From contig NZ_BLJI01000004.1 of NCBI RefSeq assembly GCF_017312365.1, positions 1 through 64,000 of the forward strand: a stretch of DNA of 64,000 bases, read 5' to 3'. Both the position numbers and the translations under genes were made by a program. Source of the stretch: Chroococcus sp. FPU101. GTDB lineage: Bacteria; Cyanobacteriota; Cyanobacteriia; Cyanobacteriales; Microcystaceae. The number at the start of each line of letters is the position of its first letter. Position 1 is the stretch's first letter. Shown here one piece after another: positions 9,943 through 15,020 of the stretch. The notes beneath the pieces were generated by a model that saw only the letters and a list, made by a program, of their open reading frames with translations, was not told the DNA's origin and ran no database searches.

Positions 9943-10013
9943 AGGACTACACGCTCGACTTGACAATTAACTTCGCAATTTGCTAACTTAAAGAAGTGGG
10001 ATTCATAGCCATT

Positions 10014-10027
10014 AACTAAAGGAGGTA
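10014..10027 (+). repeat. Left arm of 14-bp inverted repeat around higB
   Basis: AACTAAAGGAGGTA is the exact reverse complement of 10431-10444. It contains AAAGGAGGT, a near-perfect complement of the 3' end of 16S rRNA, and so is also a very strong ribosome site for the ATG at 10033. Confidence 0.7.
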
Positions 10028-10032
10028 TAAAT

Positions 10033-10095
10033 ATGACTATTCATTTTCATAAAAGGATTAATAATTTATGCACATTATTTCAAAATCCGCCTTGA
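10033..10095 (+). CDS. Possible 20-residue leader ORF overlapping higB
   Basis: An ATG at 10033 sits 8 bases past the ideal Shine-Dalgarno AAAGGAGGT and reads 20 codons to a TGA ending at 10095. The ORF overlaps the first nine codons of higB in another frame. Ribosomes terminating here could couple translation into higB, whose own start has a weaker, more distant site (AAAGG at 10048-10055). The peptide (starts MTIHFHKRIN) resembles nothing I know. It may be purely a translational device. Confidence 0.4.
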   Translation: MTIHFHKRINNLCTLFQNPP

Positions 10096-10373
10096 ATAAA
10101 TTTTGGAAAATTCATCCAGAGTCACAAGCTGGATTACGATACTGGTACAAACTATCTAGCCAACATAAGTGGAAAAATTTTGAAGACGTTCGTCAGGTTT
10201 TCCCGTCGGCTGATCAAGTCGGTAACTTCATCATTTTCAATATTTGTGGAAACAATTACAGATTGATTACTCTTATTGATTTTCACAATGGAAAAGTTTT
10301 TATCAGAAAGGCATTAACCCACGCTGAATATGATAAAGATAATTGGAAAAAAGATGAATGGTACGATAAATAA
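10068..10373 (+). CDS. higB: HigB-family mRNA-interferase toxin
   Basis: A 101-residue toxin of the HigB/RelE fold. It shows the characteristic run of the HigB_toxin family: ISKSALNKFWKIHP at the start, WKNFEDVRQVFPSADQVGN in the middle, then IFNICGNNYRLI, FIRKALTHAEYDK and a short acidic/Lys tail. Such toxins cut mRNA on the ribosome. The toxin gene precedes the antitoxin, as usual for higBA. It is bracketed by a perfect 14-bp inverted repeat and preceded by an overlapping leader ORF. The gap of 100 bp to higA is larger than usual, so higA may have its own promoter. Confidence 0.9.
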   Translation: MHIISKSALNKFWKIHPESQAGLRYWYKLSSQHKWKNFEDVRQVFPSADQVGNFIIFNICGNNYRLITLIDFHNGKVFIRKALTHAEYDKDNWKKDEWYDK

Positions 10374-10430
10374 TATTAAATTTTGCAAAAATATAAATTT
10401 TATAAAAATTACTTAAAATTTTATTTGATC

Positions 10431-10444
10431 TACCTCCTTTAGTT
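10431..10444 (-). repeat. Right arm of 14-bp inverted repeat around higB
   Basis: TACCTCCTTTAGTT lies between higB and higA and is the exact reverse complement of 10014-10027. In the mRNA it could pair with the Shine-Dalgarno sequence upstream of higB. Confidence 0.7.
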
Positions 10445-10473
10445 TTTATTTTTTAATAATGGTAACTTAATTT

Positions 10474-10875
10474 ATGATTACTGACAGATACCTTGAATTA
10501 CTTCATCACTTTCCACCACGTCCCATTGATTCTGATGAAAAATTAGAAGCAATGCAAAAAGTTGTTAATTCTTTACTGGATAAACCAGAATTAACTTTAG
10601 AAGAACGAGACTATCTTAATGTCTTAGGTACCTTAATTTATGAATATGAACAAACTCAAGAACCAATACCTGATATTTATGGTGTTGAACTTTTGAAAGT
10701 ATTATTAGAAGAACGAAACCTACGACAAAAAGATCTTGTTTCAATTTTTAAAACTGAATCAATTATTTCAGATATTCTAAATGGAAAACGGGAATTAACG
10801 GCTAGACATATTCAAGAGTTAGCAGAATTTTTTAATTTATCTCCTGCTGTATTTTTTCCTACCATATCAACTTAA
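10474..10875 (+). CDS. higA: HigA-family antitoxin
   Basis: A 133-residue protein with an N-terminal helical region (residues 1-65, acidic, likely toxin-binding) and a C-terminal helix-turn-helix at about 68-130 (GVELLKVLLEERNLRQKDL, SIISDILNGKRELT, HIQELAEFFNLSPAVFF). This is the layout of the larger HigA antitoxins that neutralise HigB and repress the operon. It lies 100 bp after higB, with the right arm of the inverted repeat between them. Its stop overlaps by 4 bp the stop of the convergent DUF2499 gene. Confidence 0.88.
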   Translation: MITDRYLELLHHFPPRPIDSDEKLEAMQKVVNSLLDKPELTLEERDYLNVLGTLIYEYEQTQEPIPDIYGVELLKVLLEERNLRQKDLVSIFKTESIISDILNGKRELTARHIQELAEFFNLSPAVFFPTIST

Positions 10876-12452: not shown

Positions 12453-13253
12453 ATGGAAATCTCATCACCCTCAGAAAACGCTAAATTTCCTTTAATTCGT
12501 CTTTCTCAAGCACAGCTTAACCTTTTAGAAGTTTGTCCACCGCAATTTCAGCGTATTTATCTTGAACAACTTAGCACACCAACGAGTCCAGAACAGCAAG
12601 AAAAACTAATTTGGGGTAGTCAGTTTCACTTGTTGATGCAGCAACGAGAATTAGGGTTACCGATCGAAGAACTTCTGAGCGATGATGATCAATTAAACCA
12701 TTCTCTGAAGGCACTTTTGCAAGCCGCCCCCGAACTGCAACTGAATCATCATTGGCGGGCGGCGGAGCATTGCCGTACACTTGAGATGCAAGGTTATCTG
12801 TTTACGGTTATTTATGATCTACTGATTGCTGATTCAACACACGCTCAGATTTTGGACTGGAAAACTTATTTACAGCCAGAAAAACCAAATAAACTGGCGA
12901 AAAACTGGCAAACACGGCTTTATCTGTATGTACTCGCTGAAACGTCTTCTTATTTACCTGAACAGATCTCAATGACTTACTGGTTTGTTAAGTTGCCCAA
13001 AGAACCGCAAAAGATTACTTTTAATTACGATCGCCAACAACATGAACAAACTCAACGAGATTTAATCCGTCTGTTGACTCAACTGGATCAATGGTTTAAA
13101 AATTACTTAGAACACGAAGTATTTTTCCCTCATCGTTCTGACTGTCTAGAAAAATGTCCTTATGCTGACTCTTTTGAGCGTTTAGAGTATGGAGATGATC
13201 CGAGTAAAATGTTGTCTATTGATGAGATTGAAGAGATTAACCCGTTTGTTTAA
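12453..13253 (+). CDS. PD-(D/E)XK nuclease family protein
   Basis: A 266-residue protein resembling the stand-alone RecB-like nucleases of the PD-(D/E)XK (Cas4/PDDEXK_1) family. It opens with 'RLSQAQLNLLEVCPPQFQRIY', the fold's usual entry helix. A histidine helix follows (WGSQFHLLMQQ), then the metal site VIYDLLIAD...QILDWKTY, which supplies the Asp and the D-x-K. QTRLYLYVLA matches the conserved Q-x3-Y helix. The C-terminal CLEKCPYAD keeps two cysteines of the iron-sulfur cluster seen in Cas4-like members. No cas genes or recombination genes are nearby, so the role is probably DNA repair, but this is inference. Confidence 0.72.
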   Translation: MEISSPSENAKFPLIRLSQAQLNLLEVCPPQFQRIYLEQLSTPTSPEQQEKLIWGSQFHLLMQQRELGLPIEELLSDDDQLNHSLKALLQAAPELQLNHHWRAAEHCRTLEMQGYLFTVIYDLLIADSTHAQILDWKTYLQPEKPNKLAKNWQTRLYLYVLAETSSYLPEQISMTYWFVKLPKEPQKITFNYDRQQHEQTQRDLIRLLTQLDQWFKNYLEHEVFFPHRSDCLEKCPYADSFERLEYGDDPSKMLSIDEIEEINPFV

Positions 13254-13283
13254 GTTACATTAAAAAGAAGGTAGCGTATATTG

Positions 13284-14495
13284 ATGGCTCAAATGTCTTT
13301 CCTCAAAGATGAACTCGAACAGAATGGGATTGCTAGTTTTATTCCAGAAATTATTGAACACGAAGCTGTTTTAGCTGAACTCGAATATGCGTTGCGTCCA
13401 GTGGTTCATGAAGGCAAAATTCAACCCTATGGATTTATTGTTTGTAGTTGTACAGATTCATTAATTTATCGTAAATTTGCTCATCAAACGGGGTTTGAAC
13501 TCAATATTGCCCGTCGGATCGCTGATGGTTGTCATAGTTTTCTCATTTTTACGGAAGGAGAATTTAAGGGTGTTTTTCCTTTAGCTGAAAGTGCCGATGA
13601 TGAATATTCTCTCGTTCAGTTACAACAATCCTCTAAAGCGGTGATTTGTATTACAGATAATACAGGAACGACAAAAATCTTCTGTGATGAAGGGGTTTTT
13701 ATTCATCAATATCGTCAATGGCAGCATAAACCCTCAATTAAACAGGCGTTGAGTAATATTCGTCGTTGTGTTTCTCCCATTGATTGCGAGATTTTGGATA
13801 GTATTTTAGGATTTTGTTTCTATGAACTTAGTCCGAATAAAATTGGGGCTACCTTGGTTTGGTGTTTAAAAAGTCTTCCTGCTAAAGAGATGGAACGCTT
13901 TTTACCGAGTACGATGCCGCAGGCACGCTACGCGCCCGCTCGCAATCTCCAGAAACGAATTACACTAGATATGCGGGATGATGTGAATCGGGCGATCCTC
14001 CGTCATATGTTGACTTATGCAGATGGGGCGGTGTTTCTTGATGCTGAGGGTCTAGTCATTGGGGGCGGCGCACATCTAAAATATTCAGAAGATAGCCGAC
14101 GTTTGATTAATGCCTATCGGGGAACTCGGCATACTTCAGCAAAACGATTTTCTTATGATTTTCCCGAAACCCTATTGTTTGTGGTTTCTAGCGATGGTTT
14201 AGTGACGGTTTTCTCAGATGGTATGAATTTGGTTAATCTCAAAACCTATGCAGTCGATAGCGTGATTACTGATTTTTCCCTCCCGATCGAATCTAGGGAA
14301 AATGCCACCAGTTTTTATGTAAAAGAAAAATTAATTGAATGCAGTAATTGCAAAAAAGCATTCAAAATTCAAACAATGAGTTGGGCTGAGTCGGAAGAAC
14401 ACAAGATTTCTTGTCCAGTTTGTAACCATTTTCTGTACTCAACTAAATGTTATGTGATGAGTGTCTACATTGTTAAAAATTTGTTGCCGCAATAA
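13284..14495 (+). CDS. Soluble diadenylate-cyclase-domain (DisA_N) protein with C-terminal zinc ribbon
   Basis: A 403-residue cytosolic protein (positions below count from the TTG one codon before the ATG at 13284). Residues about 225-335 carry the diadenylate cyclase signature: DGA at 248-250 (YADGAVFLDAEG) and the RHT-type motif at 280-287 (RGTRHTSA), where the family norm is RHR or RHT. Such domains make c-di-AMP from two ATP. The N-terminal 200 residues are not a domain I recognise. The C-terminus has a four-cysteine zinc ribbon (C354, C357, C378, C381). This is unlike the usual cyanobacterial CdaA, which has three membrane helices. A GC-rich in-frame insert lies at 13914-13947. Activity is inferred from the motifs. 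Confidence 0.75.
   Translation: MAQMSFLKDELEQNGIASFIPEIIEHEAVLAELEYALRPVVHEGKIQPYGFIVCSCTDSLIYRKFAHQTGFELNIARRIADGCHSFLIFTEGEFKGVFPLAESADDEYSLVQLQQSSKAVICITDNTGTTKIFCDEGVFIHQYRQWQHKPSIKQALSNIRRCVSPIDCEILDSILGFCFYELSPNKIGATLVWCLKSLPAKEMERFLPSTMPQARYAPARNLQKRITLDMRDDVNRAILRHMLTYADGAVFLDAEGLVIGGGAHLKYSEDSRRLINAYRGTRHTSAKRFSYDFPETLLFVVSSDGLVTVFSDGMNLVNLKTYAVDSVITDFSLPIESRENATSFYVKEKLIECSNCKKAFKIQTMSWAESEEHKISCPVCNHFLYSTKCYVMSVYIVKNLLPQ
13914..13947 (+). repeat. GC-rich in-frame insert in the cyclase gene
   Basis: About 30 bases of very GC-rich sequence (GCCGCAGGCACGCTACGCGC and on) interrupt an AT-rich gene and encode about ten extra residues (PQARYAPARN) between the N-terminal region and the cyclase core. 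The word GCAGGCACGCTACGC is like short dispersed repeats known in cyanobacterial genomes. Confidence 0.5.
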
Positions 14496-14642: not shown

Positions 14643-14744
14643 AAAATCGGTAGAATTATGGTAGCAGAAGCATCTATCTTAATAACTGCTAAAACAATAG
14701 TTTACTAGGGAAGATAATTAATTACTTTGAACTCCGACAACACC

Positions 14745-15020
14745 ATGATTGAACCATCTACCAATATCCTCGATGAAGTCCAACTTCCTCGTGAAGAGCG
14801 CGTTATTCAGCTACAAAATCTCATTGAAACCCTTCGGATCGCGGAGGAAATTGCTGGCAAAGGCTATTTAATCAGTAGCTCTGAACTAGCTGATCTTATG
14901 GATATCAATGCTAGTGCTGTCACCAGTCGCGGTGACCATTGGTCTTGGCGTAACTGGGTTGTCTCACGAGTTAGACGTGAAGGAAATCAAATTCTTTGGC
15001 AACTTGAACGTATTGATTAA
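14745..15020 (+). CDS. Conserved-looking small protein, possible winged-helix fold
   Basis: A 91-residue protein from the ATG at 14745; an in-frame TTG at 14727 would add six residues. It has an acidic amphipathic helix (EERVIQLQNLIETLRIAEEI) followed by a segment like a helix-turn-helix, 'YLISSSELADLMDINASAVT', and then a basic, Trp-rich end (WSWRNWVVSRVRREGNQILWQLERI). The pattern suggests a DNA-binding winged helix, but no named family is recognised. It stands alone between a terminator and the convergent cruG gene. Confidence 0.55.
   Translation: MIEPSTNILDEVQLPREERVIQLQNLIETLRIAEEIAGKGYLISSSELADLMDINASAVTSRGDHWSWRNWVVSRVRREGNQILWQLERID

Follow-up and report, generated by a model that had tools for sequence, protein, structure and literature searches.

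Among the described proteins closest to the one considered here, DisA has an N-terminal DAC domain and a C-terminal helix-hairpin-helix. A link between CBASS and DAC proteins was reportedly noted by Galperin in 2023. The DS-2 system, a CBASS with a DAC, is described in PMC13092281 as consisting of a phospholipase, a cGAS and a DAC, in which catalytic mutation of the DAC abolishes defence, and 15 of 30 DS-2 homologues are said to adjoin a CBASS. The archaeal-type DacY and DacZ (CdaZ) proteins carry an extra domain N-terminal to the DAC, which the account in PMC6741144 calls pyruvate-kinase-C-like. As to mechanism, PMC8573169 describes the DGA and RHR motifs as required for ligand binding and two DAC domains placed head to head as needed for c-di-AMP formation. 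In Mycobacterium tuberculosis DacA a change of RHR to AAA is reported to abolish activity and G73A in the DGA motif is reported not to (PMC3328451), and docking to the CdaA active site has been described with the side chains of Asp171, Tyr187, Thr202 and Glu223 kept flexible (PMC10167629). Proteins that join a DACNK domain (PF21753) to a DAC domain (PF02457) are a class already catalogued in Pfam, and it is to this class that the protein described here belongs.

The gene lies at 13284..14495 on the forward strand of the window, by which we mean the whole 64,000-nucleotide stretch of Chroococcus sp. FPU101 DNA that was analysed, and runs from an ATG start to a TAA stop, encoding 403 aa; an alternative TTG start is found one codon upstream, at 13281. 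Both domains of the class are present in the product over the Pfam cut-off, an N-terminal DACNK sensor domain (13299..13733, +, residues 6-150; E 5.6e-37, 127.1 bits, cut-off 27) preceding a predicted DAC catalytic domain (13824..14222, +, residues 181-313; E 4.4e-10, 39.6 bits, cut-off 27), and on these sequence scores both matches are far above chance. The DAC domain contains a DGA motif (14022..14030, +, D247, G248 and A249), a GTRHT motif (14121..14135, +, residues 280-284) that reads GTRHR in CdaA, and the residues SSDG (14187..14198, +, residues 302-305) where CdaA has SEETG, with a Ser in place of the first Glu. It is followed by a four-Cys ribbon of the form CxxC-x20-CxxC (14340..14423, +, residues 353-380). 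A stretch of 72% GC at about 13912-13950, inside a gene of 39% GC, encodes an added loop that is missing from four other members aligned and is modelled at a pLDDT below 50 at 216-221; the 16-base core of this stretch has a single occurrence in the FPU101 genome.

We read this protein, with a probability of about 60%, as an accessory, soluble, predicted diadenylate cyclase of the DACNK class that is distinct from both CdaA and DisA. On this view c-di-AMP would be formed from two ATP molecules by the central DAC domain, once two DAC domains face each other head to head. The DACNK domain at the N-terminus is predicted to be a DAC that has degenerated, keeping the DG and losing the RH motif, and would bind a nucleotide-like ligand and regulate how the catalytic domains pair. 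For the ribbon we would expect a stabilising or docking role that the protein can do without.

Modelling gives good support for the DAC fold, which appears closest to that of DisA. A profile of 36 sequences matches solved DAC structures first (8ofo, E 1.1e-6), and in comparisons of the AlphaFold model of the full-length protein (mean pLDDT 89.0) by Foldseek and VIA, the 40 highest ranks all belong to DAC entries, with Z no lower than 11.2, and an unrelated fold first appears at Z 2.9. The DAC domain superposes best on DisA (3c1y/4yxm; VIA Z 13.0, 133 residues, 2.8 A), and DisA, like the window protein, is soluble. The two differ in that the DAC domain of the window protein is central, not N-terminal, that there is no helix-hairpin-helix match in Pfam, and that the NCBIfam model for DisA gives 11 bits against a cut-off of 201. 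With CdaA the protein shares the DAC fold, the DGA and the GTRH; it differs in having RHT for RHR and SSDG for SEETG, in giving no match to TIGR00159 at E up to 1, a model which the CdaA of FPU101 does match, and in its want of membrane helices, none being found with a top 19-residue Kyte-Doolittle mean of 1.27, against 2.23 in the CdaA of FPU101. On this hydropathy the protein is predicted to be soluble. It has an extra domain N-terminal to the DAC, as in DacY and DacZ, but this domain is a DACNK, modelled as DAC-like. To DS-2 it is linked by the DAC domain and by two relatives, L021 and L029, that also adjoin CD-NTase genes, but the DS2_3 model (NF053872) gives 14.3 bits against a cut-off of 630, and the window gene has no CD-NTase beside it. 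The original prediction of a DAC-like protein that lacks membrane helices, is unlike CdaA and carries a four-Cys ribbon (C353, C356, C377 and C380, by Cys pattern) is thus borne out, and its N-domain, put at 200 residues and called unknown, proves to be about 150 residues long and to belong to the named Pfam family DACNK.

Two DAC matches were found in the FPU101 genome (104 contigs, 98.94% complete) at E up to 0.001, the window gene and a CdaA gene; of 14 control genomes, 11 gave a DAC match, E. coli not being named among these. The presence of the latter had been left to be checked; it encodes 312 aa, with a Pfam DAC match at E 1.5e-39 and an NCBIfam CdaA score of 284.9 bits against a cut-off of 188.8. 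Because a CdaA is also present, the natural reading of the window gene is that of a second synthase. All 39 genomes searched (FPU101 and relatives) contain a DAC, and two DACs occur only in FPU101 and in one genome of the same family, G011.

The neighbours of the window gene are a glutathione synthetase, a PDDEXK-family gene, a glycosyltransferase-like gene (identified by eye) and SecA. The PDDEXK-family gene (12453-13253, +) ends 30 bp ahead of the ATG start, or 27 bp ahead of the TTG start, and was considered as a partner and rejected, being present in 5/5 relatives searched and, in G011, lying away from the DACNK gene. About 2.4 kb upstream of the window gene there is a HigB-like toxin with an HTH antitoxin (10068-10875, +), and the stretch 9944-10870 has no match in the corresponding stretch of G001, a species of the same genus. 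Downstream, a 97-aa ORF (14727-15020, +) is without a family match over cut-off and is well conserved in G001.

Relatives were gathered by scanning genome contigs; a first scan found no locus, and a second, which used the DAC fragment of five members, yielded 34 loci, of which L020, L022 and L026 are apparently genes already found in the genome search. Together with the window protein and that of G011 these make up 36 members, all with a Pfam DAC match (36/36), 34 with DACNK and one with the sister family DACNV. The constancy of the motifs GTRHTSA[RKQ]R and F[VT]VS[SD]DG[PL]V among them is partly by construction, since these were the patterns of the scan; no such bias applies to D247, A249 or the N-domain residues. 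The 34 loci come from Cyanobacteriota, Actinomycetota, Bdellovibrionota, Chloroflexota, Planctomycetota, Acidobacteriota, Spirochaetota, Riflebacteria, Myxococcota and Pseudomonadota, and DACNK was found in 2/58 genomes among relatives, 1/386 across the phylum and 5/388 across the order, FPU101 being included in each of these samples, which overlap. DACNK–DAC relatives are thus rare and sporadic over many phyla. In the tree the window copy groups with L031 (100/97), within a cyanobacterial set of eight (86/95, a fork not starred) that adjoins a second cyanobacterial set containing L020, L021 and L022 (joint fork 90/95). The window protein has no match in plasmids, phages or viral contigs, the Xenococcus protein has none in plasmids, and alignments A2 and A3 have none in viral contigs.

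It is in the neighbourhoods of these relatives that a different use of the protein comes into view. In Nostoc linckia (L021) the order of genes is an 806-aa CHAT–DAC protein, Cap15, a CD-NTase and the DACNK–DAC, with a 1023-aa ORF further along that has a weak TIR match (E 1.9e-7). The CHAT and DAC domains are joined there in one protein (L021:5173-7593), and this CBASS-like locus has two DACs. In Xenococcus PCC 7305 the DACNK–DAC gene is placed within an Ssp (phosphorothioation) locus (L020:2347-14499), flanked by SspD and an MzaB-like ATPase; ahead of SspD come, in that order, SspB, SspC, an opposite-strand gene and an HNH protein, and beyond the ATPase lie an ORF that weakly matches ZacB/DrmC and then a DndA/SspA cysteine desulfurase. 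A Dehalococcoidia locus (L029) has the order BrxL piece, HNH, CD-NTase in two pieces, DACNK–DAC and TmtA, one of the two pieces of the CD-NTase (L029:8243-9080 for the CD-NTase as a whole) having an internal stop. In a locus from the Planctomycetota (L024) a 2124-aa ORF that matches helicases and methylases lies 102 bp upstream of the DACNK–DAC. These four are the loci with defence matches among the eight viewed protein by protein (L020, L021, L022, L024, L029, L035, L040 and L052), the loci beyond these eight having been covered by a tally. By analogy with such loci, and with DS-2, whose DAC mutants lose defence, the DACNK–DAC protein might be the nucleotide-signalling part of a phage defence, making or tuning a messenger for an immune effector, a role already suggested for DACs linked to CBASS, as its patchy distribution would also allow; for the window clade this would mean a cyclase parted from its partners, or with partners elsewhere in the genome.

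We consider this unlikely as an account of the window gene. No defence partner stands beside that gene, and the FPU101 genome has no match to SMODS, for which three control genomes were positive, nor to the CD-NTase of L021; Cap15 is also unmatched, with no control genome positive either. Membership of a CBASS is not supported at the window locus. PADLOC was also run on 123 neighbouring proteins of 120-1300 aa, taken two to each side of the gene at the window and at 32 other loci; L020, L021 and L029 were left out, as was, for its size, the 2124-aa ORF of L024. It gave 19 families at E up to 1e-10, none of them in more than three proteins. As the tally is thin in these remaining loci, defence is a recurring use of the family and not a fixed one. 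Clustering of neighbours within six genes (L036, L042, L048 and L050 left out) gave no family-wide partner except the genes common to four Bdellovibrionota loci, the other clusters being large paralogous families, and beyond such families the set of eight to which the window copy belongs has no common gene in the neighbourhoods listed.

Common to the four Bdellovibrionota loci are a divergent response-regulator gene, the DACNK–DAC, an Hpt-like gene (identified by eye) and a response regulator, which together look to us like a phosphorelay. In three of the loci there is, besides, an adjoining large membrane protein, convergent with the DACNK–DAC (L032:11204-13369, -, and likewise in L033 and L038), and we take these proteins to be the three of the 123 scanned neighbours with Na_H_Exchanger and TrkA_C domains. 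TrkA_C (RCK_C) is a c-di-AMP receptor domain, and a complex of the KtrA RCK_C with c-di-AMP is reportedly on record, according to an entry in a reference list.

The window clade itself is an orphan, and since the gene stands alone there, the output of the accessory cyclase that we favour would probably join the c-di-AMP pool of CdaA.

For the active site, the 36 members were compared with 30 cyanobacterial CdaA. D247 and A249 are kept in 36/36 members and G248 in 32/36, with R in the other four; G280, T281, R282 and H283 are likewise kept in 36/36, and because GTRH was part of the search pattern, the more independent evidence comes from D247 and A249. At the third position of RHR all 30 CdaA have R, and 34/36 members, the window protein (T284) included, have T. 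At the column corresponding to E223 of CdaA, placed by counting along the CdaA sequence from RHR at 203-205, the members have S (16), E (12), A (5), Q (2) or D (1), and the window protein has S303; the residue that follows is E in CdaA and D in 33/36 members (D304 in the window). Besides S303 and the GC-rich loop insert, the window copy differs from other members of the class in having L at 306, where 34/36 have P. From these alignments the catalytic core is present with two departures, T284 and S303, and diadenylate cyclase activity is a likely prediction. Of the features that the original prediction took from c-di-AMP cyclases, the DGA and RHT are both present, the latter not being canonical, as CdaA has RHR. 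The proposal of a second c-di-AMP synthase is upheld as far as a second DAC-domain gene beside CdaA is concerned, and qualified by the replacement of two residues, the last Arg in RHR and, in SEETG, the first Glu. As for a loss of ATP-site residues, D247, A249, T281, R282 and H283 are kept, and the two residues just named are replaced.

These departures, the T in 34/36 members and the S at the E223 position followed by D in the window protein, would also suit a DAC domain that no longer cyclises, serving as a receptor or ATP sensor in which the fold and the nucleotide pocket are kept and no c-di-AMP is made. So would the state of the gene in its close kin. G001 has synteny on both sides of a gap of 975 bp (13266 to 14240), which runs from just ahead of the gene to about residue 319, so that the core of the gene is lost; the ribbon-coding end is kept, immediately preceded by a stop and lacking a start at its beginning. 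We infer from this comparison that a DACNK–DAC gene was present in the ancestor of FPU101 and G001, and is dispensable. In the closest relative the N-domain is frameshifted and partly missing (L031:9150-9800), a sign of either a decaying gene or an assembly fault. A receptor or sensor of this kind nevertheless seems improbable to us, as a dead enzyme would not usually keep D247, A249, T281, R282 and H283 unchanged across 36 members and several phyla (the last three being constant in part through the search pattern), an E at the position of residue 303 is kept in 12/36 members, and the inactive RHR mutant of M. tuberculosis DacA described in PMC3328451 had all three residues changed.

The second element of the cyclase reading, the DACNK domain, resembles a DAC in its modelled structure. 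Modelled alone (residues 1-152, pLDDT 91.4), it consists of H27-37, E49-54, H60-65, H73-79, E85-90, E93-99, H107-117, E120-124 and E130-134, and the DAC domain of H168-182, E189-194, H200-206, H233-245, E249-252, E257-263, H281-292, E296-301 and E307-311. The elements follow the same order, except for a short extra helix at 269-274 in the DAC domain, and leading helices and two further strands in the N-domain. When the N-domain was compared with a library of 350,542 chains, ranking the best 1000 of Foldseek (994 aligned), 39 DAC entries took ranks 1-39 with Z 6.1-7.3, values below 8, at which the tool warns of a possible mere common arrangement, and the next fold stood at 2.9; 111-119 residues were aligned in each of these entries except 2fb5 (133). 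Ranks 1-3 of Foldseek itself are all DisA, with weak E values of 0.19-0.31. What makes the likeness persuasive is that the best match by Foldseek comes from the very family to which the adjoining domain belongs, and that other folds score far lower.

Comparison of the sequences of the N-domain and DAC gave no significant homology. Values of E by hhalign were 0.068, 0.064 and 0.16, and nine of 100 column shuffles reached the observed 16.0 (among the ten best listed). For residues 21-150 in local mode, 6/60 shuffles reached the score against DACNK–DACs and 1/60 that against DACs with CdaA, and in global mode 22/60 and 27/60 did so. The case for a degenerate DAC is therefore a structural one. Within the N-domain E32, H42, E43, G50, R77, G82 and W146 are invariant in 33 aligned members (all except L031, L052 and L053), and residue 81 is D in 30/36 members and N in 4/36. 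Going by the order of elements and not by coordinates, D81-G82 stands just ahead of the strand that matches the post-DGA strand of the DAC domain, and there is no RH at the position of the second motif. On the strength of the models we think it quite probable that DACNK is a DAC-like domain. The family itself is already in Pfam; its structural resemblance to DAC is the new point, a search of the literature on DACNK having found nothing on the fold of the domain.

Taken further, the models may be read to mean that DACNK–DACs are tandem DACs, in which the decayed N-terminal half has kept its hold on a nucleotide and partners the live DAC, either in its own chain or in an adjacent one. We rate this as a long shot. 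If it is true, one chain would be gated by, or would use, a second and possibly non-adenine nucleotide, and the messenger produced could differ from housekeeping c-di-AMP, a difference that would account for the recruitment of these proteins by defence loci in cyanobacteria that already have CdaA.

The least probable reading, and a very doubtful one, is the earlier proposal of a DNA- or RNA-sensing cyclase with a ribbon that reports the ligand: the CxxC...CxxC pattern does occur in 23/36 members, but it is missing from 13/36, including G011 of the same family as the window source and a branch made up of short forms from actinobacteria, Pfam found no DNA- or RNA-binding domain in the window protein, and matches to archaeal ribosomal proteins at about residues 332-397 reach only Z 2.2-2.6, below a useful level. 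With its two CxxC knuckles the window ribbon is a putative zinc ribbon by Cys pattern only, the profile Zn_ribbon_4 falling below cut-off at 13.3 bits against 30.3, and its absence from 13/36 members means that it is not part of the core. In one of these 13, L043, the end of the frame looks shifted by eye, and a ribbon may be hidden there.

For the accessory DACNK-class cyclase that we favour, the biological setting is one in which CdaA, the housekeeping cyclase for c-di-AMP, is present in 39/39 genomes searched, and a second, soluble and sensor-fitted cyclase, sporadic among species, should for this reason answer a special signal. Should the N-domain be a copy of the enzyme domain that has degenerated, an origin would be given for the DACNK sensor, along with a testable class of ligands, the nucleotides, and the relatives of the window protein in CBASS, Ssp and other defence loci bear on why diadenylate cyclases appear in phage defence.
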